The position numbers and the translations under genes were made by a program. Shown here one piece after another: positions 3,451-42,771 of a stretch of 42,771 nucleotides of DNA. The DNA comes from Indolivaga alginatilytica. GTDB taxonomy: Bacteria; Bacteroidota; Bacteroidia; Bacteroidales; Dysgonomonadaceae. How positions within the stretch are numbered: position 1 is the stretch's first letter; each line of letters opens with the position of its first letter. The stretch lies in NCBI RefSeq assembly GCF_003201355.1, contig NZ_QICL01000035.1, positions 1 through 42,771 of the forward strand. Reading direction: 5' to 3'. The notes under the pieces were generated by a model. It had not been told where the DNA came from. It did no database searches and worked only from the letters and a program-made list of their open reading frames with translations.

Positions 3451-3611
3451 AGAGTTGCGGAAAACATTAAAAATATTAAAAAAATGATATATATTTGTCA
3501 ACATTTTATTAGGAAGAACATTATGTTCACAAAAGTCTCGCAACGAAAACTGTCAATTTTCAAAACCATCGGGACAACAGATTTAAAATTCATTCTATAC
3601 ATAAAAGTATG

Positions 3612-3686
3612 GCGTGGAGTTACCTGTTTTGATGGTTAGGTATGACAGTGCCTCGTTACGGAACAGTGTGGCTTCCACGCTTTTTT
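3612..3686 (+). ncRNA. Candidate structured RNA ending in a U-run
   Basis: A stem made by GCGTGGA (3612-3618) and TCCACGC (3674-3680) closes a roughly 55-base loop that contains a smaller ACCT/AGGT pairing, and TTTTTT follows at once. This looks like an intrinsically terminated small RNA or the end of an attenuated leader. It lies about 155 bases upstream of the ECF sigma gene, in otherwise gene-free DNA (3451-3839). I cannot match it to a named RNA family. Confidence 0.3.
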
Positions 3687-3839
3687 GATTCCGGGGTAAC
3701 AAATCGTTATGACTGTAGGTTATTATTGCTTCAGTGTAAAATACATACAAATAACCAACAGGAAAGAAACCCTATATTCTAATTGTACAAAAGAGTAATT
3801 ATTGCCTGCTATTATGGAACATGTTAAACAAATAATCTT

Positions 3840-4526
3840 ATGAAACAGTCTATCAGAGATGAAATAGTACTAATCGAAGCATTACATCGGGGAAGCCAGA
3901 GATCCTTCGAACAGCTTTACGCTAACTATACTGATTTTGTTTATAAAAGTATTGACCGGATTATTCGTTCCAAAGATGATGCATACGAACTGACAAACGA
4001 TATCTTTATGAAAGTCTGGCATAACCGGGATAAGATCGACAGTAGTCAGCCCATGAAAAATTATCTCCTTTTGCTGGCACAACGTGAAGCGTATAATTTT
4101 CTGAATAGTAAATCCGCAGGAAAAACCAATGCCAATATTCGTATGGATGATTATCTGACCGAGCTTTCGGAATTTATCGACTTGACGGATAGCGAAAATA
4201 CCCTGTATGCAAAAGAACTGGCTATGACCATCCGCTTAGTCGTAGACCGTATGCCTGCACAACGAAGAATTATTTTCGAACAAAGCCGGTATGAAGGGCT
4301 GTCAAATATGCAAATAGCTCTCAATATGGACTTAAGCATTAAGACAATTGAAACGCATATCAGTGCCGCTCTAAGGGATCTCAAAAGAGTTGTCCTTGCA
4401 TTTTGCATTCTATACAGCTCGGCTCATTTCTTAAAAGCAGCCAGTGATATAAGGGACTTTAATAATCAACCGTCAATAAATATTATTCAGGCTTTTGAAG
4501 GGAAAGAAGAGGAAAAACCATCCTGA
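3840..4526 (+). CDS. ECF RNA polymerase sigma factor (Bacteroides expansion family type)
   Basis: A 228-residue sigma-70-like factor of the extracytoplasmic-function class. Region 2 spans about residues 23-66 (FEQLYANYTDFVYKSI ... NDIFMKVWHNRDKI). Region 4 spans about 138-185, with MPAQRRIIFEQSRYEGLS and the recognition helix MQIALNMDLSIKTIETHIS. Both are characteristic of factors that act with FecR-type anti-sigmas. A hydrophobic C-terminal stretch (VVLAFCILYSSAHFL) extends past region 4 and is unusual; it might touch the membrane or the anti-sigma. The FecR gene follows at 4807 and the fimbrial genes after that, so the likely regulon is the downstream pilus operon. The ATG at 3840 gives the normal family length. 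Confidence 0.88.
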   Translation: MKQSIRDEIVLIEALHRGSQRSFEQLYANYTDFVYKSIDRIIRSKDDAYELTNDIFMKVWHNRDKIDSSQPMKNYLLLLAQREAYNFLNSKSAGKTNANIRMDDYLTELSEFIDLTDSENTLYAKELAMTIRLVVDRMPAQRRIIFEQSRYEGLSNMQIALNMDLSIKTIETHISAALRDLKRVVLAFCILYSSAHFLKAASDIRDFNNQPSINIIQAFEGKEEEKPS

Positions 4527-4806
4527 TTATGTTAAATAAATGTTAAATAAAGATTTTAACTAAGGGTTAAGCCAAAAAATCTTGTGAGTATATGTAGAGG
4601 GTAATTCTTCGAACAACGAAAAATAAAAAGAGTTTACAAAAAAGGATTCAATACGACAAATAAATGCAACTAAGAAAAAAGCAAGTACTGACAACTACTT
4701 TTTCGGAAATCAGATCGTTTTCCGTAACAAGCTTTATTGCATTTAATAAATTCATTGCTGGTTACTCAACACGCACACTAACACTATAAATAAAGTACCG
4801 GGTAAA
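4527..4806. other. Intergenic gap between sigma factor and FecR genes
   Basis: No gene is visible. The 280-base spacing is wide for a co-transcribed sigma/anti-sigma pair, so the fecR-like gene may have its own promoter, perhaps one read by the upstream sigma factor. I see no strong terminator. Confidence 0.45.
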
Positions 4807-27611: not shown

Positions 27612-28505
27612 ATGAAACAATTTGTGAAATCACTTCAACAGGAAGTGCAGGCTACACTTTGCCGTATCGAAAAAAAAGAGGGTTGCCAATTGAAGAAAAC
27701 ACAGGAAGGAATCGGGTGTCTGGAAGAATCCTTCGTGCGGTTAAAAACATTTATCCGAGCTTACAGCTTTGAAGACGAATCGCAGGAAATCCTGTTCTTC
27801 AAAGAATATAAGCCCGGGCTGACTTGTCATCTGATCTTTTACCGCAAGAAGTACAGCATCGAACTCAGCCGTCCTACCGGAAGTCATGCCGGGCAGATCG
27901 CCTATCTGGAGAAGGAGCTATCCCGCATCCGTGACTACTTCGACAAGACGGCAGGTTTCTACCGTTATTACCGTTCGGGCGGAACCCACCTGGATCACCT
28001 TTATTTCTTACGCTGTAAACCCTGTATCGGGATGCACTTGGAATCATTTTACGACGAGCGTGACCCGTCGTTTTCGACTATTGCAGACTTTCAGGTAGCC
28101 AAGATACAGGCGAATGAACTCTTGGAAGATTACCTCAAGGTAAAGATAAGAAGCATCGAACAGGGAACAACCTCGGACAGCTATCCGCCCTTGCCGGCAG
28201 TGAGACTGAGCTGGACCGCATCCAAAAGAGACCTGATGGAAATAATCTACGCAAAACACTTCCTTGAGGCATTCAATCACGGAAAAGCGGGGGTCAAAGA
28301 AATTACCCGTTATTTCGAGCTTGTCTTTAATGTTGATCTGTCTTCTACCGCTCAAAGGGCATGGTATGACCTGACCATTCGGGAAAATCCGACCGCTTTT
28401 CTGGATAAGATGCGCGAGATTATACGGCAACGCATGGAGGATGAAGACCGGAAGAATAACCGGAATAAACCTAAAGATGATGATGACGATGATGATAACA
28501 TCTGA
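27612..28505 (+). CDS. rteC: RteC-family regulator of ICE excision
   Basis: A 297-residue RteC-family protein. In CTnDOT, RteC is the last factor of the tetracycline-responsive cascade and activates the excision genes. Family features seen here are EEILFFKEYKPGL-type sequence (residues about 56-68), an FYRYYRSGGTHLDHLYFLR core (about 118-136), the DFQVAKIQANELLEDYL helix and the C-terminal winged-helix-like part (about 205-280) with LMEIIYAKHFLEAFNHGKAGVKEI and WYDLTIRENPTAFLDKMREII. The tail is highly acidic (seven consecutive Asp). No RteA/RteB pair is in the window. It shows that the surrounding fimbrial genes ride on an ICE. Confidence 0.88.
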   Translation: MKQFVKSLQQEVQATLCRIEKKEGCQLKKTQEGIGCLEESFVRLKTFIRAYSFEDESQEILFFKEYKPGLTCHLIFYRKKYSIELSRPTGSHAGQIAYLEKELSRIRDYFDKTAGFYRYYRSGGTHLDHLYFLRCKPCIGMHLESFYDERDPSFSTIADFQVAKIQANELLEDYLKVKIRSIEQGTTSDSYPPLPAVRLSWTASKRDLMEIIYAKHFLEAFNHGKAGVKEITRYFELVFNVDLSSTAQRAWYDLTIRENPTAFLDKMREIIRQRMEDEDRKNNRNKPKDDDDDDDNI

Positions 28506-28930: not shown

Positions 28931-29227
28931 ATGGACATAGAAGATAACAAATTCGAAAAAAGCATTACCATGATACTCGAATTACTCGGTGAGTTGCGTA
29001 AACTACTCAAAGCCAGGAACCGTTTGAACGGAGAGAACATATACGACAATCAGGATTTATGCATGATGCTTAAAATAAGCAAGCGGAGTCTCCAGCGGCT
29101 TCGTAGCCTCGGGGCATTGCCCTATATGCAAATCGGACAGAAAACCTTCTATCTCGAGTCCGATGTGCTTAACTATATACAAGCTCAGATAGACAATAAG
29201 AAAACACGGGGAGAGAGCGATTCCTAA
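28931..29227 (+). CDS. Helix-turn-helix (HTH_17-like) ICE protein
   Basis: A 98-residue DNA-binding protein of the excisionase/MerR-like HTH_17 type found beside rteC in many Bacteroidales ICEs. An N-terminal helix (EKSITMILELLGELRKLLKA) is followed by IYDNQDLCMMLKISKRSLQRLRSLGALPYMQIGQKTFYLESDVLNYI, the usual winged-helix pattern with F/Y-L-x-S-D-V at the wing. It probably acts as a recombination directionality factor or a regulator of transfer. Confidence 0.82.
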   Translation: MDIEDNKFEKSITMILELLGELRKLLKARNRLNGENIYDNQDLCMMLKISKRSLQRLRSLGALPYMQIGQKTFYLESDVLNYIQAQIDNKKTRGESDS

Positions 29228-29325: not shown

Positions 29326-30618
29326 TCAGATGCCTTCTTTTTTATGGTATTTAAAGAATATACATTTATCATATGCCAATGATAGGATAATTATATAGTT
29401 ATTATCGTCAATCTTATGTGCATTCTGAAGTTCCAATTCGTTTATGTTTTGTATCTGAAAGGTATCCTGATTGCAAACTAGTTCATAATCGTGAATATAT
29501 TTAAGATCTACTCCGATATTCCCTCTGCCCCTTCCTCCCTCAATACCTATAAAATCTTTGCTTATTTCGTTCAATGAGACTCCATCCGGTATTTTTGTAA
29601 TGGGATCTGCCTCGGGTGTAATATAGACTGGTATATCAACTAATATTGGCTCTCTGTTTTTTGTAAAACTTTCTATATTTAGTGCAATGCCTATTTTATC
29701 GAATATCAGGAAACAATCATCGCATGTACTATTATTATAATAAGATTCTTTAGAAAAGTGACCATGTGTGGTATGAAAGTAGCTGTCTTTTTTGCTGTTT
29801 TTAATTAGGTTAGTCAAATAAATCTCGTAAATAGAATCTATTCTATGATCATAATTGATTAATGCTCTCTCAAATTTGAGAATTTCAGCATCTGATTTTC
29901 CAAAATCTTTTTCTAAGGGCTTTTTGATGGATTCGATAGCAAATGGTGGCAAATATTTCTTTATAAGTTGTGAAATAAATTCACTATCATTCTTTTTTAT
30001 CGAAGTCCCATCAAACTCACTATAGGCAGATTGGTAGAAATCTTTTCGGTCAATTCCATAAAATATACCTTTGTTAATTCCATTGTCAAAATCGAACCGG
30101 TAAAAATTGACTCTGGAATTATCATTATCGGATTCTTTATCATAATTGTCTAGATTATAATATATGTATTCCCCATGAATATTTTTACCTTTCTTTAATG
30201 CATAGCTTATATTATCATAAGTATAATCATCTGCATCCTTAATGTTTTTGAATGCATTTTTCTTTATTACTTCCCCACGATCATTGTAATATATATATTC
30301 TTTTTGATCATCTTTATTGTAGATATATGTCTCATAAATCCACTTGCCATCCATTGCAATCGGCGTTAATATAGGTATCTGTCTAGCCGAGTCACCGCCC
30401 ATATATGCATCCGTATACATGTATCCAAAATCCATGTATTCACCTGACAAATAAGTGTCACTTTCCAGATCTAACAATTCAATCGTAAAATCTAAGCTGT
30501 CTTTTTGTTGAGTCGTTTTCCGATCTGCTTCAACTTTAAATTGATTGATACAACTATTGAGTGGGATTCCGAATGAGATGGATAATAGGAAGAAAAGAGT
30601 ACGAGATATAACTGGCAT
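29326..30618 (-). CDS. Uncharacterised large lipoprotein in the AT-rich island
   Basis: A 430-residue lipoprotein: signal LFFLLSISFGIPLNSC with a lipid Cys near residue 23. The mature part is beta-rich and full of Tyr and Asp (YIYYNDRGEVIKKNAF, GEYIYYNLDNYDKESDND), reminiscent of YD-like or MORN-like strand repeats near residues 90-160. A C-terminal section has VDIPVYITPEADPITKIPDG. I do not recognise the family. ATG 30618 is chosen because it starts a clean signal peptide; the in-frame start at 30705 would add 29 residues before it. It is divergent from the genes at 31159 onward and differs in codon use from the pilus genes. Confidence 0.68.
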   Translation of the reverse strand: MPVISRTLFFLLSISFGIPLNSCINQFKVEADRKTTQQKDSLDFTIELLDLESDTYLSGEYMDFGYMYTDAYMGGDSARQIPILTPIAMDGKWIYETYIYNKDDQKEYIYYNDRGEVIKKNAFKNIKDADDYTYDNISYALKKGKNIHGEYIYYNLDNYDKESDNDNSRVNFYRFDFDNGINKGIFYGIDRKDFYQSAYSEFDGTSIKKNDSEFISQLIKKYLPPFAIESIKKPLEKDFGKSDAEILKFERALINYDHRIDSIYEIYLTNLIKNSKKDSYFHTTHGHFSKESYYNNSTCDDCFLIFDKIGIALNIESFTKNREPILVDIPVYITPEADPITKIPDGVSLNEISKDFIGIEGGRGRGNIGVDLKYIHDYELVCNQDTFQIQNINELELQNAHKIDDNNYIIILSLAYDKCIFFKYHKKEGI

Positions 30619-30871
30619 AAAATAGTTGTGTTTCTTAAAAAATCTAATTGTAAAACTTTTTATAAAAGATAATAGAAAAATAGAGATGGCTTTCCGATAA
30701 TCCATAGGATAAATTCTTATTTTCTATTTTTTTTTGACTAAATTTTCATTAAGTTGCTGTCTTTAAGTTTTTACAAGATTATTGTCTGAAAACAATCATA
30801 TAACTTGTAACTACTTATTATACAAATATAGAGCTTTTTTAACAAGAAAGTTAAGAAACTGCTCAAGTTTT

Positions 30872-31052: not shown

Positions 31053-31158
31053 AAATACTTTGTAAATGACGGGATCTTTCTAATTTGTTGATTAGCCATT
31101 GCTAAACCAACACTTTCTTATTATTTTAACAGACTTAAATGAATCAAGCCCACTTTGT

Positions 31159-31767
31159 ATGCTGAATAAATTACTTGGAAGAAAGAATAAACCCGAACGA
31201 ATGTATTTCCCCGGTCAAAAAAGAGAAACTGTCTTTACAAAACTATTTCGTAAAGTCAAAGCATTAGCTGAGTCATTCAGCAGAAGATATAAATTAACTA
31301 AATCTGTACATATTTATATTTCCGGTCAAAAAGAACAATTAATTATTGCTCCTCAATATGTAGACAAGTCCGGTCTTATTATTGAACAGGAAGAATGCTT
31401 TGTTTATGAATATCCTGTCAATAGTACTAAATTGGGCGAAGAACTATTCAGATGTATAAATCTGTTCTACTATAAAGATGAAAATATAAGAATAGAAAAG
31501 GATTCAGACTGGCCTGCTTTTAAACATAGCAAGTGTAAAACGATGAAAGCATTTATGAATGAATATATCCTTATCTCTGTAAGTTCCACGAATGACGGTA
31601 ATATTATTTTGAAAATGGAAGGTCATCCTTATAAGGATAGTCTGTTAACAATTAATTCTACTATATCCTGTTATCTGGGCGGAACACTTTCTAAAAAGAG
31701 AGCAGATGAATTAGGGAACAGAATTTTCTTAGTTTATGAAGCCTGTCTAAGTAAACAGTTCAGTTAA
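31159..31767 (+). CDS. Uncharacterised protein, possible immunity-type
   Basis: A 202-residue cytoplasmic protein with no signal peptide. An Arg/Lys-rich N-terminus (LLGRKNKPERMYFPGQKRE) precedes an alpha/beta body with SVHIYISGQKEQLIIAPQYVDKSGL and VYEYPVNSTKLGEELFRCINLFYY. The last pattern loosely resembles small toxin-immunity proteins, but I cannot assign a family. ATG 31159 is preferred to the TTG at 31099. It precedes an exported protein gene and lies in the AT-rich island. Confidence 0.6.
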   Translation: MLNKLLGRKNKPERMYFPGQKRETVFTKLFRKVKALAESFSRRYKLTKSVHIYISGQKEQLIIAPQYVDKSGLIIEQEECFVYEYPVNSTKLGEELFRCINLFYYKDENIRIEKDSDWPAFKHSKCKTMKAFMNEYILISVSSTNDGNIILKMEGHPYKDSLLTINSTISCYLGGTLSKKRADELGNRIFLVYEACLSKQFS

Positions 31768-31905
31768 TTCATTGCTAAACAATGATTATTTCAAAACAAT
31801 CGGGGGCATATAAGAACCATTATGCGAAAGGACGATTTTAGAAATTGCCGTTGTCGCGAGAAATATTTACTACATTTACAGGAATTTATTTTATGTCTGT
31901 TTAAG

Positions 31906-32874
31906 ATGAAACCAACAAGTAATAAACGAACAACACTTCTATTGATCGTATTTTCAATAATGCTTTCAAGCCAGATCTATTCACAAGCCGGTGATAAAAG
32001 ATACACCCATTTTGTTTCAGTTTTCAATGCGGAATTGAAAAAATATAATATCGGGGATATAAAAAAACATTATGATAAAGGTTATTTCAGAACAACCTCT
32101 GAAAGTGAATATTTAGATAAAGATGTTGAAGTCGGGCTGACGACATTATTTGAACGATGCGGCAATAAAGACGACAGCTCCATAAAAGAAGAAATTAAAA
32201 TTTACTTTGAACAGCTGAAGCAATTGAAAAATGAACGCAAATCATTGAATGAGGAAATATTGAATTTTGATTCAACGAAAGAAAAGCTGAAAATAAGGAT
32301 GTATCCCGACCTCTTAAAGAATACCTATAGTAAGAACGACGCTATTATAAAAACAAAGAATCCCGGAATAATCGAAGTTGTTGTCATCGATTTACCCACA
32401 GGAATCGGAAGTTTAGAAGCTAAATATTTAAAGCATTGGGGCATTTCCATAGACTCTGTTTACACTATATCTAAAGAAAATACGTTGAAACAGATCAGAG
32501 CCCGTTTTGTAGAAATGCAGCCAACGCAGAATGGTATAATCTTTAACCTGTTTGCCGATGACGATGATTTATTTGTTACCTCCTGTATTTTAGACTTAGG
32601 CAGATTTAATATTCCTAAAGGTAAATATGGAAGCTTTGTGTCCATCCCCAACAGTGCAATGGTCATTGTAATTGCATTAGATGATAAAGAAGCTATCGAA
32701 AACAGTGCTGCTGATTTGATAGGAGCAGCAGACTCTATGTATGGAATTGAAGAGATGAAACCAATCTCCAATAATCTTTTTTGGTACAACGGAAAAGAAC
32801 TTAAGGTTATTGAAAAAAACTATAAACAAAGAAAATTAATATATCCGACAGAACTCAAGGATTTAATCAGATAA
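31906..32874 (+). CDS. Uncharacterised exported protein
   Basis: A 322-residue protein with a signal peptide (TTLLLIVFSIMLSSQIYSQA, about 8-27) and probable periplasmic location. The mature part has a helical segment (EEIKIYFEQLKQLKNERKSLNEEI, possible coiled coil) and an alpha/beta C-terminal part with KNPGIIEVVVIDLPTGIGSL and FNIPKGKYGSFVSIPNSAMVIVIALDDKEAIENS. No motif is recognised. ATG 31906 is preferred because it begins a clean signal peptide. Confidence 0.62.
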   Translation: MKPTSNKRTTLLLIVFSIMLSSQIYSQAGDKRYTHFVSVFNAELKKYNIGDIKKHYDKGYFRTTSESEYLDKDVEVGLTTLFERCGNKDDSSIKEEIKIYFEQLKQLKNERKSLNEEILNFDSTKEKLKIRMYPDLLKNTYSKNDAIIKTKNPGIIEVVVIDLPTGIGSLEAKYLKHWGISIDSVYTISKENTLKQIRARFVEMQPTQNGIIFNLFADDDDLFVTSCILDLGRFNIPKGKYGSFVSIPNSAMVIVIALDDKEAIENSAADLIGAADSMYGIEEMKPISNNLFWYNGKELKVIEKNYKQRKLIYPTELKDLIR

Positions 32875-32922: not shown

Positions 32923-33368
32923 TTGAAATTTTTCAGCAAAAAACCCACATTAAAATCAATTGATATTGACTCTCTTTTAAAGACTGACAACAATACCAAT
33001 ATTATCATGGTAATCGATGAATACCTGAACAAGTATTGTTCATCGAGAATTTGGAGAGGGAAATTAACAATGGCGGATTTAACCAATTCTATTTTAATTC
33101 AAGCGGCGATTTCAGCTTAGAAACAGTTGATGCCTTATTAGCTATCGGAGCCTCAAAAACTGCTTTAATTGTCAAGAAAGCTAACTCACAATTTCCTGAT
33201 ACGAATATACTTAAAGACAGAGGACAAAGGCAGGAGATTTTATTGCAAATAGAGGATAATGCTCAACCGGTGTGGGATGAGTGTGACACAGAATTTTATA
33301 AGTATCAAGAACATATTAGTGATCTACTGGTAAAATACATAGAAGAAAACAAAGAAAAATTCAGATAG
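32923..33368 (+). pseudogene. DUF4375 (DMP19-like) gene broken by a frameshift
   Basis: Two frames together read like one DUF4375-type protein. The first (32923-33120, TTG start) gives FSKKPTLKSIDIDSLL then IIMVIDEYLNKYC. The second (from about 33036 to 33368) gives FIENLEREINNGGFNQFYFN then SSGDFSLETVDALLAIGASK, the conserved N-G-G-F/Y-N-S-S-G-D core. The frame changes near 33035-33040. Such proteins often sit in immunity or conflict loci. Sequencing error, decay or programmed frameshifting cannot be told apart from this sequence alone. Confidence 0.6.
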
Positions 33369-33883: not shown

Positions 33884-36800
33884 ATGAAAGAAAAGATTAT
33901 TGAAACAACCGCATGGTTAATAAAAAAATTGCACAAACTGCATTTCAGCCTCACATATAAAGATGTTGGTGAAGTTGGTTATTCATCTTTATCTCCAATC
34001 GATAATTATTCAATAGAAAACGACGAAACACAGATAGACACAACAGTTGATGATAATCAAATTATAAAAAGTGATGATTATTTAAAAGCTTTATTATGGG
34101 CATTAAAGAATAGAAGAACAGAAAATATCAAGAATATTGCACTTACAGGTCCCTACGGATCGGGAAAAAGCAGTATTTTGAGAACATTCCAAAAGCATTA
34201 TAGAGGTGAGGATTTAAAGTTTTTGGAGATCTCATTAGCTACTTTTAAAGAAGAAAATCCAAAGATTGATGTAAATGGCGATAAAATTGAACCTGATAAA
34301 GGCCAATTATTACGATTAATAGAAACAAGCATATTGGAACAAATATTTTATCATGAAGATGATAATAAAGTTCCTGATTCTCGTTTTAAAAAGATTAGAA
34401 GTTATAGTAAAAAACAATTGTTTGGTAATGCAACTTGTCTATTACTATTTATCATAGCAGTTTTAAATTATTTTTTTCCTTATTTGACTCAAAGCATATT
34501 TAAAGATAATCCTTTTAGTGGAAATGTTTGTAATTGGCTGCATTATGGTGGAATAGTCATTATAATAATAGGTATTTTCTTTATTATTTATAAATCTATT
34601 CGATTGATTAACTCTGTAACACTTAATAAATTAAATATTCAAAATGCAGAGATTGGTTTTGGGGATAATAATTCAAATAAATCCATTCTTAATCACCACA
34701 TTGATGAAATTTTATACTTTTTCAGTGTCAGACCTTATAATGTGGTAATTATCGAAGACCTTGACCGTTTTAGAGAAACAGAAATATTTACAAAACTAAG
34801 AGAGGTAAATCTATTATTAAATAGTTCAGAAAGAACCAAAAGAAAAGATATTGTATTTATTTATGCTGTAAGAGATGAAATGTTTACAGATAAAGAAAGA
34901 GCTAAATTTTTCGATTTCATTATCCCTATAATACCAATTATAAACTCGTCCAATTCAGGTGAAATATTACGTAGTAAAAAAATAAAATATAGCTATGATA
35001 TATCAGATCGTTTCATAGAAGATATATCTTTCTATATTGATGATATGCGTTTATTGAATAATATATGTAATGAATTTTATCTTTATAAACAGAAACTAAA
35101 TGAAAGTTTAAACCAAGATAAGTTATTTGCAATTATCACATATAAGAATATGTATCCAAACGATTTTGTTCAATTAAGCTGCAATGAAGGAGACTTATAT
35201 GGCACATTGCACTCCAAAAGAACTTACATAAAGCAAGAAGCCGATAAGATTGATAAACAAATAAAGGAATATAAAGCTGAAATATCAAGTTTGGAAAATT
35301 TATTTATAAAAAATGTTTCTGATCTTAGAAAATTATACATTTTACTTCTCATACAGAAATTAGATCGATATAAAATTTTTATTGTAAATGAAGAAGAAAT
35401 TACTGTTGATAAATTATCTCAAGATGAAAACTTTGCCTATTTCATTAAAAATGAATTAAAGTATCAATCATGGAATTATAGTAGTTATTATGGTTGGCAA
35501 TCTGTAAACTCTGAAATATCTATATCTTTTTCTGAAATTGAACGTGAATTTGATGCAAATAAGACATACTCACAAAGAGAAATAGAAATAAAAGAATACA
35601 ATCAAGGAAAAACAAATTTATTAAAGAACAAGATAAAAGAATCAGAGAAGGAAAAGTTAAAAACACGAAGCCTTAAAATAGAGGAACTACTAAAATTGAA
35701 TTTAAGTATTGAATTAAATATTAGTGGGGATTTAAATAAGAATTTCATATACACATTATTAAAAAATGGTTACATAACCGAAGATTATATAGATTACATA
35801 TCTCTATTTCATGAAGGAAGTATAACACGCACAGACCATCAGTATATTATTAGTCTTAGGAATGGTATAAAGTTAGAAGCTGACTATGCATTAAATAAAC
35901 TTGATAAATTGGTGGAAAAACTCAATCCATTGGATTTTGAGACCGAATATATATTAAATTATAATCTCGTTGATTTCCTTTTATATAGTTCTTCTTCATA
36001 TACAAATCAACTTCAAGCAGTATTTAATAAACTGAAAGATGAATCAAGTGCTTCTATTGAATTTATAAATGGTTTTATTGAAACTTCTGAAAATCTTGAA
36101 GTCTTTGTTAAGATCCTATGTAACTGTTGGGTTAATATATGGGCATATATTAACAATGAATTATCTTATTCTGATCAAGATAACCTGAAATATCTTAAAT
36201 TGATTCTTGAGTATGCTGAACTATCTTCTATAAAAGAGATCGCAAAACAATCTAATCTTGAACAAACAATTTTAGGGAAGAAAGATTTTCTTTCTATTAT
36301 ACAGAATGAAGATAAGCTAATACAAATCATTCAAGAATTAGATATACTTTTTACAGATATTGATTTTCAGAATTCACCTGATTCATTATTAGAGTTTATA
36401 TATGAAAATGACTATTATCAAATAGATACCTCAATAATTGTGCCTATAATCAAAAAGTTTGGAAAGTTTGATCAAGTAGCTTTTGATACTAGTAATTATA
36501 CCGCCATATTAAAATCAGAATGTCCTTACCTTATTGAGTTTATTGAAAGTAATATTGAGTTATACATTGATGATATATATTTAGAGATTGAGACAAATGT
36601 AAAAGAGGAAGAAAATTCATATTTGAAGTTACTTAATAATAAAGAAATAAGTCTTGATGATAAAATCATATTAATACACAAGATTAACACCAAAATTACA
36701 ACTTTAAGTAATGTAAAAGATAAAACTTTCTATCCTACACTTTTTTCTGAAAACAAAGTCATTCCAAAATGGCAAAATCTTTTGTTATATTATAATATTG

Positions 36801-37618
36801 ATGAAAAAATAACTGATCAAATGATTGTTTTCTTGAATAATCACGACAATGCAAATGAGTTGTCAACTGTTAAAATGGAAACCAAAGTTAATGATAAAGA
36901 TATCTATGGAAAGATGTGTCGAAATATCATCTTATGTGATGATATAAATAATGAAAATTTCGATTTAATATTAATATCTGTCCCTTGGTGGTATGATAAT
37001 ATAGATATAAGTAATCTTTCTATCCACAAAGTAACTTCATTAATTAAGAGAGTTAAAATTAGACCTACTTTAGATGGCTATAAGTTGATTAAAGAATATT
37101 CAAATGAATTAGTTATCCTTTTGATTGAAGAACGAAAAAATTTAATTCTTGAAATTGTTGGTCAAATAGAATGGGATAGTAATGATCTTAATTTAATATT
37201 GAAATCAAATAGAATAACCAATTCTGAGAAGAAGACATTTTTAAACAACTGTGCTGATGGAACAATTGCAGATAACAAAGAGAATCTGAATTTAATCAAT
37301 CAAATAATGTTGGATGATCTGAACTTTGTTGTTAATAATAACCTTATCAAGATGATGATTTTAGAAAAACGAAATTCAATAGTTAATAGAATCCGATTAT
37401 TTAATCAATATTCTTCATTGATCACATCTCTTGATGATCTTATCGATAGTTTATCAGGTAATTATTTAGAAATACCGAATAAAAGCAAGAGGGCAATATT
37501 GGATGATACACAATACAATAGACGTTTCTTAGATATATTGAAGAATCGGAATTATATAGCGAGTTATTCTGATAAAAAAGGAGATTTAAGGGTGTATCAT
37601 AGTAAAAAGAATGATTAA
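33884..37618 (+). CDS. YobI/KAP-type membrane P-loop NTPase
   Basis: A 1244-residue STAND-like or KAP-related NTPase closest to the YobI group. A Walker A motif GPYGSGKSS lies at residues 89-97 and a Walker B VVIIEDLDRF at 287-296, with two membrane spans inserted between them (about 184-204 and 222-238), as in KAP-type enzymes. Downstream signatures TKLREVNLLLN, DIVFIYAVRDEMFTDKERAKFF-DFIIPIIP and a conserved DDMRLLNNICNEF helix match YobI proteins. Residues about 450-1244 are a long helical region, probably a scaffold or sensor. NTPases of this group are considered conflict or antiphage components. The gene leads a tight four-gene cassette and is strongly AT-rich. ATG 33884 gives the expected N-terminus before the SDDYLKALLWAL helix. 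Confidence 0.85.
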   Translation: MKEKIIETTAWLIKKLHKLHFSLTYKDVGEVGYSSLSPIDNYSIENDETQIDTTVDDNQIIKSDDYLKALLWALKNRRTENIKNIALTGPYGSGKSSILRTFQKHYRGEDLKFLEISLATFKEENPKIDVNGDKIEPDKGQLLRLIETSILEQIFYHEDDNKVPDSRFKKIRSYSKKQLFGNATCLLLFIIAVLNYFFPYLTQSIFKDNPFSGNVCNWLHYGGIVIIIIGIFFIIYKSIRLINSVTLNKLNIQNAEIGFGDNNSNKSILNHHIDEILYFFSVRPYNVVIIEDLDRFRETEIFTKLREVNLLLNSSERTKRKDIVFIYAVRDEMFTDKERAKFFDFIIPIIPIINSSNSGEILRSKKIKYSYDISDRFIEDISFYIDDMRLLNNICNEFYLYKQKLNESLNQDKLFAIITYKNMYPNDFVQLSCNEGDLYGTLHSKRTYIKQEADKIDKQIKEYKAEISSLENLFIKNVSDLRKLYILLLIQKLDRYKIFIVNEEEITVDKLSQDENFAYFIKNELKYQSWNYSSYYGWQSVNSEISISFSEIEREFDANKTYSQREIEIKEYNQGKTNLLKNKIKESEKEKLKTRSLKIEELLKLNLSIELNISGDLNKNFIYTLLKNGYITEDYIDYISLFHEGSITRTDHQYIISLRNGIKLEADYALNKLDKLVEKLNPLDFETEYILNYNLVDFLLYSSSSYTNQLQAVFNKLKDESSASIEFINGFIETSENLEVFVKILCNCWVNIWAYINNELSYSDQDNLKYLKLILEYAELSSIKEIAKQSNLEQTILGKKDFLSIIQNEDKLIQIIQELDILFTDIDFQNSPDSLLEFIYENDYYQIDTSIIVPIIKKFGKFDQVAFDTSNYTAILKSECPYLIEFIESNIELYIDDIYLEIETNVKEEENSYLKLLNNKEISLDDKIILIHKINTKITTLSNVKDKTFYPTLFSENKVIPKWQNLLLYYNIDEKITDQMIVFLNNHDNANELSTVKMETKVNDKDIYGKMCRNIILCDDINNENFDLILISVPWWYDNIDISNLSIHKVTSLIKRVKIRPTLDGYKLIKEYSNELVILLIEERKNLILEIVGQIEWDSNDLNLILKSNRITNSEKKTFLNNCADGTIADNKENLNLINQIMLDDLNFVVNNNLIKMMILEKRNSIVNRIRLFNQYSSLITSLDDLIDSLSGNYLEIPNKSKRAILDDTQYNRRFLDILKNRNYIASYSDKKGDLRVYHSKKND

Positions 37619-37621
37619 GGA

Positions 37622-38203
37622 ATGAATTGCTTCTTAGAAAATATAATAGTTGATTTGAATATTTCTTTATTTCAAATACTAACTTTAGTAATTGCTTCCA
37701 TCACAGCAATTGTAGGGTTATTCACTTATAGGAAAAATACAAAATGGAAAAAGGCTGAGTATGTAGCAAGTTTAGTCAATAAAATGAAGGATAACAGAAA
37801 CTTTGTTAGAGCTACATTAATGCTTGATTGGTCAAAAACAACCATACCTGTTTATCCAAATGAATTTGAAGATACTAATATAAAATCATTTGATTTTGAA
37901 AGTTATATGCTAATAAATGCACTAAACAAACCAATTTTAGAATTTGACGAAAAAGAAGCTTTGATTCGTTTAATTTTTGATGAATTATTTGAATGCTTTG
38001 AAACAATAAATACACATATTGATAAGAAATTATACACAACAAAAGATATTGATACATATATAATCTATTGGATAAATAAATTAGCAAATAAAAAAGAATG
38101 GGAACATAATCCTGAAGTGAAAATTGCAATTGATACTTTCTTAAACCAATACAATTATAAAGGGGTTATAAAATTATGTAATAAACTTTTAAATAAAAAG
38201 TGA
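37622..38203 (+). CDS. Single-span membrane protein in the YobI cassette
   Basis: A 193-residue protein with one N-terminal membrane span (about 14-36, ISLFQILTLVIASITAIVGLF) and a cytoplasmic helical body. The pattern WKKAEYVASLVNKMKDNRNFVRATLMLDW recalls a widespread family of bacterial membrane-anchored proteins with an FVAKEIKEF...MLDW-like core; I cannot give it a domain number. It starts three bases after the NTPase stop (AAGGAATG supplies the ribosome site), so it is co-translated with it and may be its partner or effector. Confidence 0.75.
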   Translation: MNCFLENIIVDLNISLFQILTLVIASITAIVGLFTYRKNTKWKKAEYVASLVNKMKDNRNFVRATLMLDWSKTTIPVYPNEFEDTNIKSFDFESYMLINALNKPILEFDEKEALIRLIFDELFECFETINTHIDKKLYTTKDIDTYIIYWINKLANKKEWEHNPEVKIAIDTFLNQYNYKGVIKLCNKLLNKK

Positions 38204-38280
38204 ATTCCTCAAATAGTATAGTGAATAGATTAAGATATCATCATTAGGTAATTATCAACTAATAAATAAAAAACAAGGTC

Positions 38281-38757
38281 ATGTATAGAGAACAATATTT
38301 AAGGGAGGGAAATTGGATTGAAGTCCAAATGGTAGATTCAAATATTAAAAAGCACTATGGAATTGTGAAAGAGGTGGGGGGAAATAATAGCTATTTAAAA
38401 GTAAAGTTGATAGAAAGCGATGAAATAATTAGGATATTACCTGACATTGTGAATGCTCCAACAAAACTTATTCCTTTTACAAAAGAAATATTGCTTAAAA
38501 ATCCATCAATTTTTATTCCATTTATTAATAGCGATATAGTATTTTATTCAGACAATGATATACGTAACAGTAATTCATTGGATATTAATATTTCGAATAA
38601 TAGAGATATCAAAATATTATATAAAAATGAAGGATGCATTGATAAATGGATGTTTTTAAGAATTGAAAGTCAGCAATTAAGACCTTTTACTTTTGTACAT
38701 GAACTCCAAAACTTATATTTTGAGTTAACGAATAATGAGTTAAAAATACTTTTATGA
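38281..38757 (+). CDS. Protein with HELQNLYFELT motif, phage-associated family
   Basis: A 158-residue cytoplasmic protein. The start LREGNWIEVQM with YGIVKEVGGNNSYLKVKL suggests a small SH3-like barrel, followed by a LIPFTKEILLKN segment and a C-terminal FVHELQNLYFELTNNELKI. This order (R-x-G-N-x-I, then I-P-L-T-E-E-x-L, then V-H-Q-L-Q-N-L-Y-F-x-L-T-G-x-E-L) is typical of small proteins common in Bacteroidota phages and prophages, with no known function. It sits 77 bases after the second cassette gene and overlaps the fourth by four bases. Confidence 0.75.
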   Translation: MYREQYLREGNWIEVQMVDSNIKKHYGIVKEVGGNNSYLKVKLIESDEIIRILPDIVNAPTKLIPFTKEILLKNPSIFIPFINSDIVFYSDNDIRNSNSLDINISNNRDIKILYKNEGCIDKWMFLRIESQQLRPFTFVHELQNLYFELTNNELKILL

Positions 38758-39239
38758 ATGATGCAATGATAACAGCAATTTTCACACTCTTAGGTGTAAT
38801 AATTGGGGGAATAATTTCTACTGTTGTATCTTTTTATACAACAAAAAAAATAATTAAAGCTGAATTGAAGAAGCAGAGGATTATCTTACTTTCTCAAAAA
38901 AAGGAAAAGCTCGAAAATGAATTGATTAAAATTTATGTTAATGATTCAGAGTATACCAACGAAAATAATATTCGAAAATCTTTTAATATATTATCTATGA
39001 ACTCTCATTATTTTGACCAATATTCATTTAGTTTAATTAAAAATGAATATTGGGATTTATTATATATAATGTCCAATGACAACATAGAAAAAGCTATGAA
39101 TGGTGACTATTCTGCGGTCCTTCCCAATGACGAATCTTTTATTATCCAATGTGCTGAATTCATAAATAAAAATAGAAATATATTTTCTGTTGAAATAATA
39201 AATACTACAAAAGAAATAAATAAAAGTTTGACAGTGTGA
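38754..39239 (+). CDS. Single-span membrane protein, last gene of the YobI cassette
   Basis: A 161-residue protein with an N-terminal glycine-rich membrane span (about 5-28, TAIFTLLGVIIGGIISTVVSFY) and a basic then coiled-coil-like cytoplasmic domain (KAELKKQRIILLSQKKEKLENEL). The C-terminal helices lack known motifs. Small proteins with this span and a charged coil occur in several membrane-associated defence sets, but no direct assignment is possible. Its ATG overlaps the previous stop (ATGA), so expression is coupled. Confidence 0.7.
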   Translation: MNDAMITAIFTLLGVIIGGIISTVVSFYTTKKIIKAELKKQRIILLSQKKEKLENELIKIYVNDSEYTNENNIRKSFNILSMNSHYFDQYSFSLIKNEYWDLLYIMSNDNIEKAMNGDYSAVLPNDESFIIQCAEFINKNRNIFSVEIINTTKEINKSLTV

Positions 39240-39860: not shown

Positions 39861-39973
39861 ATGGACGGCTATATAAATAACGGAGGCTGCTATTTATAGT
39901 CTCTGTAATAACAAAACGGTCTTCCGAATGGATGACTTTGTAAATAAAAGAGGCTGTGCCTCCACTAATTATC
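39861..39973 (+). promoter_or_regulatory. Leader element upstream of the DUF4099-type gene
   Basis: A 63-base segment (39911-39973) with GGATGACTTTGTAAATAAA, a GAGGC-TGT-GCCTC hairpin and CACTAATTATC is almost identical to 41421-41482 in front of topB. A degraded third copy (39861-39891, ATGGACGGCTATATAAATAA then CGGAGGCTG) lies just upstream. Each intact copy ends about 20 bases before the start codon, so it is probably a shared cis-regulatory element in the mRNA leader. Confidence 0.6.
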
Positions 39974-39990
39974 TCCAAAATTATTTTCTT

Positions 39991-41403
39991 ATGAATGACA
40001 AACAAAAAGACCTTAAAAACCAAGATGTTCTGCTGGTCACAGAAAAAGGCAGCAACAAACTAAAAGTTGTCAGCGGTATCAACGAAGACGGAACGCCCAA
40101 AACCGTTGATCCAAAAACAAAGAATGAACCCGAGTTTCTCAAAATCGACAAACACGCCGATGTGCTGGAGAATTTCATGTCGAATTTCCTGCGTCAATGC
40201 AAAGATCCCACCCACTTTCAGTTCTTCAAAATCCCATTTGAACAATTGGAAAAGATTGTTCCGGTCTTGCAGGAAATGCTCAAAAACCCCGAAGAACCCT
40301 CCAACAAAGAAATCTTGGATAACCACCGGGTGCTCCCCGAAGCATTCTCCAAAAAAGAATATCAGGCGGTAGACGAATCCCGTATCGACTGGAAACAGTT
40401 TGAACAACTGGGAGTAACCAAAGAAATGCTCGAACAAACCAAGAGCATGGACAAACTGCTCAACTGGCAAAAGACCCCGGTCTTATTACCAATCAAAGCC
40501 GAGATAGGCGAAACAGTTATCCGCACCGATGCCCGGTTATCGTTTCGGGAAACACCCGAAGGCAAACTCTCTCTTGTTGTCCATGCCCTGCGAAAAGAAC
40601 CCCAACTCGAGGGACTTGTATACGGAGCCCGGCTATCTGAAGACGACAAGCAAAATCTGCGTCAGACAGGCAATGCAGGACGATTAGTCGAAGTCGAACC
40701 CGTCAAAGACCACAAGATGATGGCATTTGTCTCAGTAGACAAACTGACCAATGAGTTGATAGCCGTTCGGGCCGATAAAATTAAAATACCCAATGAGATA
40801 AAAGGTGTAACGCTGAACGAAGCTCAGAAAACAGACCTGTCGCAGGGAAAAGCAACCTATATAGAAGGTATGACCTCTAAGAACGGCAAGGAGTTCAACG
40901 CCACCGTACAGATCAATGCCGACAAACGGGGCTTGGAATTCAAATTCGACAATGGCAATAAATTAGAAAAATCGCAAAACCAAAACCAACAACAGGATCA
41001 ATCCGAAGGAACAAAATTCCGTATCCCGACTAAACTGTTAGGAGCAGAACTCTCTCCACAGCAACAAACTCAATTGAAAGCCGGACAAACCATCTATGTA
41101 ACAGGGATGACCGACAAAGCCGGAGAGAAATTCAATGCCTATATCAAAGTCAATACCGAAAAAGGCAAACTCGATTTCTTCAAATGGAATCCCGACAAAG
41201 CACAGAAGCAGGGAGCAGAAGTCACGCCCGATAATACCGCCAAGACACAGGTAGCGGTCAATTCCGAAGGCAAAACAGACGAAGCCACCAAGAATCTGAC
41301 AGAGCCTATCAAGCAAGGACAGACCGCACCGAACGAAAAACAAGAACAAAAGAAAGAGGAGCAAAAGAAAGAGGTCAAAAAATCCAAAGGAATGAAAATG
41401 TAA
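39991..41403 (+). CDS. DUF4099/DUF3945-type ICE protein
   Basis: A 470-residue soluble protein typical of the region beside topoisomerase in Bacteroidales ICEs. An N-terminal DUF4099-like part (about 5-165, with QDVLLVTEKGSNKLKVVSG, HFQFFKIPFEQLEKIVPVLQ and DWKQFEQLGVTKEMLE) is followed by repeated DUF3945-like units (about 165-290 and two shorter ones, IPNEIKGVTLNEAQKTDLSQG with YIEGMTSKNGKEFNATVQIN, and IPTKLLGAELSPQQQTQLKAG with YVTGMTDKAGEKFNAYIKVN). The tail is Lys/Glu/Gln rich. Its molecular job is unknown; it is probably linked to DNA processing during transfer. A longer frame from 39928 is rejected because its first 21 codons fall in the leader element shared with topB. Confidence 0.84.
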   Translation: MNDKQKDLKNQDVLLVTEKGSNKLKVVSGINEDGTPKTVDPKTKNEPEFLKIDKHADVLENFMSNFLRQCKDPTHFQFFKIPFEQLEKIVPVLQEMLKNPEEPSNKEILDNHRVLPEAFSKKEYQAVDESRIDWKQFEQLGVTKEMLEQTKSMDKLLNWQKTPVLLPIKAEIGETVIRTDARLSFRETPEGKLSLVVHALRKEPQLEGLVYGARLSEDDKQNLRQTGNAGRLVEVEPVKDHKMMAFVSVDKLTNELIAVRADKIKIPNEIKGVTLNEAQKTDLSQGKATYIEGMTSKNGKEFNATVQINADKRGLEFKFDNGNKLEKSQNQNQQQDQSEGTKFRIPTKLLGAELSPQQQTQLKAGQTIYVTGMTDKAGEKFNAYIKVNTEKGKLDFFKWNPDKAQKQGAEVTPDNTAKTQVAVNSEGKTDEATKNLTEPIKQGQTAPNEKQEQKKEEQKKEVKKSKGMKM

Positions 41404-41503: not shown

Positions 41504-42771
41504 ATGAAGAATATAAATAACAACAGAGGCATTTCAGCTCCTTCTCCTTTGGAGAAGGTTGGGATGAGGTGCATCATCGCAGAAAAACCTTCGGTAGCCC
41601 GCGAAATCGCCGCCATTGTCGGAGCCACAAACAAACAGTCCGGATACATGCAAGGCAACGGTTACCTTGTGACATGGGCATTCGGACACCTGATTCAACT
41701 GGGTATGCCCGAACACTACGGGCTGACAGGGTTCAATAAAGAACGATTACCCATTATCCCCGATACCTTTATCTTAAAACCCCGGCAAGTCAGATCCGCA
41801 GATGGCTATAAAGACGATCCGGGAGCACTCCGGCAACTGGAAATCATCCGGTCGGTCTTTGATAAGTGTGACAGGATCATTGTCGCTACCGATGCAGGGC
41901 GTGAGGGCGAACTTATATTCCGCTACATCTATCAGTATCTCGGATGTACCAAACCATTCGACAGGCTATGGATAAGTTCTCTAACCGAAAAAGCCATTGC
42001 AGACGGCTTACAGAACCTCAAAAACGGCAAAGACTACGATACCCTGTATCAGGCAGCCAAAGCACGCAGCCAAGCCGACTGGCTCGTCGGTATCAATGCC
42101 AGTCAGGCAATCAGCATTGCCGCCGGACAAGGCGTATTCTCACTCGGACGGGTGCAGACTCCGACCCTGGCAATGGTTTGCAGCCGTTATCTGGAACATA
42201 AGGGCTTTGTACCTGTTCCATTCTGGGATATTCGGCTGGATACATCCTTCGGCAAAACAACATTTTCGGCTGTCACCAAAGAACGTATCTCGTCACGCCA
42301 GCAAGCAAAAGACTTGTTTGATAAACAGAAGCAACAACGCATCGTTTGTGTCGAATCAGTCGAACAAAAAGAAGCCGTACAGGAAGCACCTTTGCTCTAC
42401 GACCTGACTACACTTCAAAAAGAAGCGAATAACAAATACGGATTCTCAGCCGACAAGACCCTGTCTACCGCTCAAAAGCTCTATGAGTCCAAACACATCA
42501 CCTATCCCCGGACAGGCAGCCGCTATATTTCGGATGATGTCTTTGAGCAGATACCCGCATTGATTCAAAAACTCGGAGACTATCCGTTTTTTGCCCTCTA
42601 TGCAAAAAAAATGGCAGAAGAACACCTGAACACCCGTTCGGTAGATACCTTAAAAGTAACCGACCACCACGCCCTGTTAATCACCGATTGCCTGCCCCAA
42701 ACCTTGAACTACGATGAACGCAAGATATACGACCTGATAGCCGGACGGATGCTCGAAGCCTTTTCAGGGGC
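41504..42771 (+). CDS. topB: DNA topoisomerase III, N-terminal part
   Basis: The frame is open from ATG 41504 to the window edge (422 codons seen). It is a type IA topoisomerase that would unlink single-stranded intermediates during ICE transfer. The Toprim part shows IIAEKPSVAREIAAIVGA with the catalytic Glu, and ATDAGREGELIFRYIY holding the metal-binding acidic residues. Further on are AAKARSQADWLVGINASQAIS, VFSLGRVQTPTLAMV, and ITYPRTGSRYIS with the active-site Tyr. The first 20 codons are unusual: SAPSPLEKVGMR is read from a repeat of the CTCCTTTGGAG type, and a second in-frame ATG at 41564 (MRCIIAEKPS) sits where normal TopB proteins begin, right after a GGAGAAGG that resembles a ribosome site. 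Confidence 0.88.
   Translation, partial: MKNINNNRGISAPSPLEKVGMRCIIAEKPSVAREIAAIVGATNKQSGYMQGNGYLVTWAFGHLIQLGMPEHYGLTGFNKERLPIIPDTFILKPRQVRSADGYKDDPGALRQLEIIRSVFDKCDRIIVATDAGREGELIFRYIYQYLGCTKPFDRLWISSLTEKAIADGLQNLKNGKDYDTLYQAAKARSQADWLVGINASQAISIAAGQGVFSLGRVQTPTLAMVCSRYLEHKGFVPVPFWDIRLDTSFGKTTFSAVTKERISSRQQAKDLFDKQKQQRIVCVESVEQKEAVQEAPLLYDLTTLQKEANNKYGFSADKTLSTAQKLYESKHITYPRTGSRYISDDVFEQIPALIQKLGDYPFFALYAKKMAEEHLNTRSVDTLKVTDHHALLITDCLPQTLNYDERKIYDLIAGRMLEAFSG
41537..41571 (+). repeat. Palindromic repeat translated at the topB N-terminus
   Basis: CTCCTTCTCCTTTGGAGAAG followed by GTTGGGATGAGGTG. This is the same general design as the GC-rich palindromes in the pilus locus (CTCC-TTT-GGAG core with a G-rich tail) but a different sequence type. 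It lies in frame between two candidate start codons. Confidence 0.55.

Follow-up and report, generated by a model that had tools for sequence, protein, structure and literature searches.

The locus described here lies on contig NZ_QICL01000035.1 of Indolivaga alginatilytica (GCF_003201355.1; Dysgonomonadaceae, Bacteroidales), in a stretch of 42,771 nt that was analysed as a whole and is called the window below. A first-pass annotation had proposed an undescribed conflict system at this site, made up of a large nucleoside triphosphatase (NTPase) and three small partners, here named O2, O3 and O4. That description fails because the large gene (33884-37618), by its sequence, is an open and motif-complete copy of Tmn, an already named anti-phage system. 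Very probably, this copy was acquired horizontally as cargo of an integrative and conjugative element (ICE), upstream of a TopA-associated gene, and the three small genes do not belong to the conserved part of the system but are passengers or lineage-specific accessories. The features of the set are the following:

33884..37618, + strand: tmn, KAP/YobI-type P-loop NTPase of 1244 aa (PF20693, PADLOC Tmn, AlphaFold2 model)
34148..34174, + strand: Walker A GPYGSGKSS, residues 89-97 (sequence; 46-row alignment)
34430..34606, + strand: two hydrophobic segments in the NTPase domain, residues 183-201 and 223-241 (hydropathy; model helices)
34742..34771, + strand: Walker B VVIIEDLDRF, residues 287-296 (sequence; 46-row alignment)
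37622..38203, + strand: O2, 193 aa, one N-terminal span, scattered relatives in an unnamed family
38281..38757, + strand: O3, soluble protein of 158 aa from the phage-associated LRIGN...YVHELQNLYFALT-type family (phrog_10066; viral loci L187-L192)
38754..39239, + strand: O4, 161 aa, single membrane span near the N-terminus

Identity of the large gene

The Pfam family YobI-ATPase (PF20693) matched residues 66-439 of the NTPase with an E value of 8.4e-121 and with the full profile covered (1-363/363), and the PADLOC Tmn model (PDLC02220) matched residues 62-1124 (E 3.4e-85, 284.9 bits), which correspond to positions 38-1156 of the 1273 of that profile. Three tmn relatives (loci L023, L024 and L034) scored 288-302 bits against the same PADLOC model. 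Given this near full-length match and the anti-phage activity published for other members (PMC11846954), the gene could not be kept as the core of an undescribed system.

Both Walker motifs, which start at residues 89 and 287, are intact in the window gene. In a 46-row alignment, G89 and Y91-S96 of Walker A were nearly invariant, and D292-F296 of Walker B were invariant. The hydrophobic segments 183-201 and 223-241, detected by hydropathy, sit between the two motifs, in agreement with the earlier description of a 1244-residue NTPase with two spans at this place. In an AlphaFold2 model of residues 1-1199 (predicted local distance difference test score 81.9), helices 176-197 and 212-245 were found at the hydrophobic segments. 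The predicted architecture combines an ORC/STAND-like ATPase with a membrane hairpin; the C-terminal half is long and helical. When this model was compared with structures, no entry titled KAP, YobI or Tmn appeared among the 50 matches listed, though such entries may exist; when solved structures were searched by sequence, nothing convincingly related to tmn, O2 or O3 came up.

According to PMC11846954, which credits the system to Gao 2020, Tmn is an NTPase of the KAP family that carries two unusual transmembrane domains and inhibits several phages through a mechanism as yet unexplored; phages escape either through a mutation in nmad5 or with the help of an anti-Tmn protein. One tmnA is reported for Tenacibaculum larymnensis LAR25 in PMC10013915, and one of the relatives collected here (L097) comes from that same strain. 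A defence role for the window NTPase is likely. The first-pass statement that comparative genomics had placed YobI/KAP NTPases among counter-invader factors was not confirmed in the available text of PMC8195603, where 'YobI' does not occur and 'KAP' is mentioned twice.

The model suggests how Tmn could work, namely as a STAND/ORC-like switch with a membrane part built into its ATPase domain. The long helical C-terminal half would be the infection sensor, the ATPase would switch and assemble in a STAND/ORC-like manner, and the membrane hairpin within the ATPase domain would carry the effect to the inner membrane, by which the phage or the infected cell would be stopped.

The three small genes

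The tight packing of the four genes was confirmed from their open reading frame (ORF) coordinates, with 3 bases between tmn and O2, 77 bases between O2 and O3, and an overlap of 4 bases between O3 and O4. A scan of the locus for promoters and terminators gave a signal no better than that of shuffled sequences, and no repeats marking the ends of a unit were seen flanking the four-gene set.

The presence of O2-O4 beside tmn was followed in two collections, a sample of 393 genomes drawn from the larger group of the order Bacteroidales and a wide scan that yielded at least 272 tmn relatives; the best 80 of these were analysed together with flanks of up to 8 kb. A tmn match was detected in 10 of the 393 genomes, the window's own included, one of the matches being a C-terminal fragment and another carrying an internal stop. 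In the nine other loci of the order, O2 and O4 were without a match up to an E value of 10; the matches of O3 were confined to two loci that had been fetched with O3 itself. No O2-, O3- or O4-like ORF was detected among the 1228 ORFs of the best 80 of the at least 272 loci (phmmer, E up to 1), with a weaker test in the six of them that have less than 1 kb of sequence 3' of tmn. With 19 further loci added, profiles for O2 and O3 and a single-sequence search with O4 were likewise negative in all 99 loci (96 distinct tmn genes, 4759 ORFs), among which are the ten nearest tmn relatives. The four-gene order recurred in none of the 80 or 99 loci, and the expected conservation of three small partners next to YobI homologues was not found. 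An undescribed four-gene system was rejected, since the large gene is Tmn and O2-O4 are not shared with its relatives; tmn with three small genes looks like a local combination as judged from these sequences. No description of Tmn with such partners was found among the titles and abstract openings searched, a scope that most subscription papers fall outside.

O2 and O4 each have a single N-terminal hydrophobic segment (16-34 and 9-27, respectively). The single spans described earlier were thus recovered by hydropathy, and the cytoplasmic bodies assigned to both proteins are plausible because a basic stretch follows each segment (positive-inside rule). That O2 and O4 are homologous was rejected (BLASTP E 0.65).

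No Pfam match above the cut-off and no PADLOC match were obtained for O2. Its relatives were found in 8 of the 393 order genomes at E up to 0.01, the window's own included; genome G300 alone was a clear case (E 3.5e-21), and the other six were weaker (E 3.5e-4 to 0.0054). The G300 relative (L160; G300:C86, 4734-5369) shows 35% identity over 176 residues and lies directly behind McrB and McrC; in the same locus, a T5orf172 protein comes after it and a type I restriction subunit lies beside. In the phylum, the O2 profile matched 6 of 238 genomes (the window's own, three of one genus and two weak ones). The three proteins from a single genus had E values of 1.7e-50 to 1.4e-53, one of them with an internal stop, and cobalamin-type genes adjoin them by eye (L202-L204). 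A Gloeothece plasmid protein matched O2 with E 1e-6 and the G300 protein with E 1e-19, and the matches on Pseudomonas and Stutzerimonas plasmids were weak (about 23% identity and E 3e-4 to 5e-4 in the Pseudomonas rows); these plasmid proteins were annotated as hypothetical where viewed. A tmn-like ORF was absent from six loci with O2 relatives (L160, L202, L203, L204, L033 and L205; 7 to 20 kb each), and no relative of O2 was confirmed in a single-sequence scan of viral contigs.

O3 has no hydrophobic span by hydropathy and matches phrog_10066 (E 5e-7), which agrees with its earlier description as a soluble protein of a phage-associated family. Six viral loci with O3 relatives (L187-L192) were confirmed out of 436 pattern matches, with a C-terminal HELQ motif in common; the protein of L191 is the same as that of L031, which was found among phage-like genes in genome G165. 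In the 393 order genomes there were 12 matches to O3 at E up to 0.01, the best non-self one at 4.3e-4. Single-sequence scans with O3 of genome contigs and of viral contigs confirmed no relative, and the phage and plasmid collections gave no match. O4 matched in 19 of the 393 order genomes, with 3.5e-4 as the best non-self value and no convincing relative, so that the sensitivity of the O4 searches cannot be gauged; there was no O4 match in the plasmid collection and no relative confirmed in viral contigs. Neither O3 nor O4 had a PADLOC match.

Spread of tmn and its carrier element

The tree of 79 proteins, built by a quick method and rooted at the midpoint, placed the window Tmn in a clade of 11 rows with support of 100, in which its companions are Flavobacteriaceae (Flavobacterium, Formosa, Zunongwangia, Tenacibaculum and Myroides), a single Flavobacteriales bin, Cognataquiflexum and Sphingobacterium, whereas the proteins of its own order fell elsewhere. 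The nearest relatives belong to Flavobacteriaceae, Cyclobacteriaceae and Sphingobacteriaceae, with a top identity of 54%. The GC content of tmn, O2, O3 and O4 is 24-26%, compared to 31-35% for four other measured genes of the insert and 42-50% for five measured ICE genes. The AT-rich composition pointed out by the first-pass annotation is therefore real for the four genes, but it is not distinctive: the GC content of tmn was below that of its own locus in 10 of 10 sister loci, and a peculiarity of the window copy was rejected. Tree placement and low tmn GC in the sister loci therefore fit horizontal spread of an AT-rich gene, in so far as sequence comparison can tell. In the plasmid collection, 638 records had a family match, all of them below 60% identity, with 8 covering at least 80% of the query and 480 typed as conjugative. 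In two loci from other Bacteroidota (L027 and L038), tmn was seen by eye beside apparent conjugation (tra) genes.

Restriction genes were found near tmn. HsdM-like genes were present in 13 of the 80 loci, excluding the locus of the seed itself (L041), and any restriction seed in 16 of 80, excluding own-locus matches, compared to none of 32 control stretches in either case; these controls came from 19 genomes and were not matched by taxon, and some of the seeds were taken from tmn loci. HsdS lies directly 5' of tmn in six of the 80 loci, counting the seed source L041, and PADLOC confirmed HsdS in L041, L043 and L052, as well as an AbiP2-like reverse transcriptase in L053. A Schlafen AlbA_2-type gene was also observed near tmn, in 9 of the 80 loci and in none of the 32 controls; five of the nine loci were seed sources. 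The nine are L045, L052, L053, L063, L072, L100 and L107, where PF04326 was confirmed, and L041 and L061. In seven loci the gene is no more than about 640 bases 3' of tmn, in one case on the opposite strand. As a neighbour of tmn it may be commoner than O2-O4; alternatively, it may be an accessory that goes with restriction loci.

The carrier is an ICE-like element, as the first reading held, on the evidence of RteC and the topoisomerase. The landmarks of its insert, and the gene directly upstream of tmn, are the following:

27612..28505, + strand: rteC, regulatory gene of the ICE, to the left of the insert (PF09357, E 9.1e-66)
28931..29227, + strand: helix-turn-helix (HTH) protein of the HTH_17 family, left insert edge (PF12728; 7 of 9 related elements have homologues close to the TopA-associated gene)
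33036..33368, + strand: DMP19-like gene (PF14300, E 3.7e-25)
39928..41403, + strand: DUF3945/DUF4099 TopA-associated gene, right insert edge (Pfam)
41504..42769, + strand: topoisomerase gene of the ICE, extending past the window end (PF01131, E 3.6e-71)

The insert is bounded by the HTH gene adjoining rteC on the left, and by the TopA-associated gene followed by the topoisomerase on the right. The DMP19-like gene (32923-33368) appears to be split over two frames, with its N-terminal part at 32923-33120 by eye. The decay ascribed to the neighbours is thus apparent in this gene, but the label 'conflict-type' was not supported for the other upstream genes, which had no PADLOC match; in this region, none was obtained for 31099-31767, 31822-32874 and 33036-33368 at E up to 1, or for 29326-30705 at E up to 0.001. 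To the left of rteC, the region 4807-27363 holds FecR, DUF3575, DUF3868, clostripain-family, DUF5106/thioredoxin-like and bactofilin genes, perhaps surface-protein cargo.

Related copies of the TopA-associated gene were found in 36 of 61 family genomes, the window's own counted, and the stretches upstream of nine other copies were compared, one of them (L161) from the window's own genome; identity of this gene across the nine elements was 55-75%. PADLOC was run on 10 chosen proteins, on ten more from L153, L156 and L159, and on all 34 longer proteins of the four defence-poor elements. Strong defence-type genes were found upstream of the TopA-associated gene in five of the nine: a SIR2/ThsA-like gene about 9 kb off in L153 (E 1e-13); a class II prokaryotic Argonaute, its partner Aga and a type II methyltransferase in L156; SspC and SspD in L157; a TIR/ThsB-like protein (E 1.8e-21) and, further out, a Ppl-like protein (E 7e-23) in L159; and DndB, DndC, DndD/PbeC and DndE-like genes with methyl-directed restriction genes in L161 (G000:C26), a second ICE-like element of the window genome. 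In L159, the gene next to the TopA-associated gene (3566-4720) combines an N-terminal sequence that by eye is leucine-rich-repeat-like with the TIR/ThsB-like C-terminal part.

The remaining four elements had no strong defence genes, L152, L155 and L158 carrying other genes and L154 ending after 4 kb. Generic PADLOC matches were obtained in three of them (a reverse transcriptase in L158, which by eye resembles a diversity-generating element, an IstB-like protein with the DrmD model in L152, a beta-galactosidase-like protein in L155, and small HTH proteins), so a PADLOC match taken by itself is weak evidence. The order of landmarks also varies, with cargo beyond the HTH homologue in L156 and L157, HTH homologues among the cargo in L153, and a homologue of window gene 49-555, not rteC or HTH, as the next landmark in L159 and L161, so the region was rejected as one exact 'slot'. 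The restriction neighbours (13 of 80 against 0 of 32) and the defence-type cargo (5 of 9) back the first-pass reading of the NTPase as a defence protein, and defence surroundings were found for tmn and for the ICE region but not for O2-O4 as a set.

Alternative explanations and known systems

If the four genes formed a variant of Tmn, O2 and O4 would be membrane partners (regulators, anchors or pore parts), O3 would be a sensor, decoy or inhibitor, and all would be needed. The 3- and -4-base gaps suggest translational coupling of tmn with O2 and of O3 with O4, the common GC content lies below that of the rest of the insert, and the G300 relative of O2 is placed likewise, directly behind McrC. 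However, the 77-base gap splits the set into two pairs, the six loci with O2 relatives have no tmn-like ORF, and O2-O4 are near tmn in none of the 80 and 99 loci, even in the ten nearest relatives; we consider such a variant quite unlikely. Doubtful to the same degree is an expanded Tmn on the ICE, in which two single-span proteins and a captured phage protein joined the NTPase operon, for example with O3 as bait or brake and O2/O4 as membrane gates. If this were true, O2-type proteins would be modular accessories of different NTPase-driven defences (McrBC in G300, Tmn here). That O2-O4 are one or two separate small conflict modules, such as a toxin-antitoxin or an anti-phage pair, lying beside tmn by chance, is conceivable though still unlikely: the O3/O4 overlap and the gathering of unrelated cargo in the same region of other elements would agree with it, but the three proteins have no PADLOC match and, besides the window's own, only one of the 393 genomes (G149) matches two of them, with weak hits to O3 and to O4 that lie on separate contigs. 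Animals also have KAP-type NTPases, one of them Kidins220, and the NTPase could be a cellular housekeeping protein with no defence link; this is very improbable for a gene that is sporadic (10 of the 393 genomes, its own included), is carried on plasmids and an ICE, has restriction neighbours and matches the Tmn model over such a length.

Horizontal acquisition of a Tmn copy as ICE cargo is the explanation we favour, with O2-O4 as passengers or lineage-specific accessories whose source would be a donor of similar AT-richness. A defence protein that is known, though its mechanism is unexplained, is thereby placed on an rteC-type ICE, and a broad family alignment and a model for Tmn are provided, while the claim of a new system is removed.

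Like Tmn (TmnA), which it matches over residues 62-1124, the window protein is an NTPase of KAP type in which two membrane segments lie between the Walker A and Walker B motifs, and members of the family occur on plasmids and near restriction genes. The window ICE copy differs in the three small genes close behind it, which were not found with the other copies examined; their absence from the 80 and 99 loci would fit action of Tmn as a single gene. The YobI-ATPase family PF20693 spans the NTPase part alone, its whole profile being covered by residues 66-439. O3 shares the C-terminal HELQ motif with the phrog_10066 / YVHELQNLYFALT proteins of Bacteroidota phages, with 22-31% identity to six viral members, and is unlike them in its location on an ICE beside tmn. 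The STAND/ORC-type defence ATPases (Avs3, Avs4, RdrA and the plant NLR resistosome) also count among the closest known systems, and the modelled Tmn may resemble them in a STAND/ORC-like ATPase joined to a helical half.

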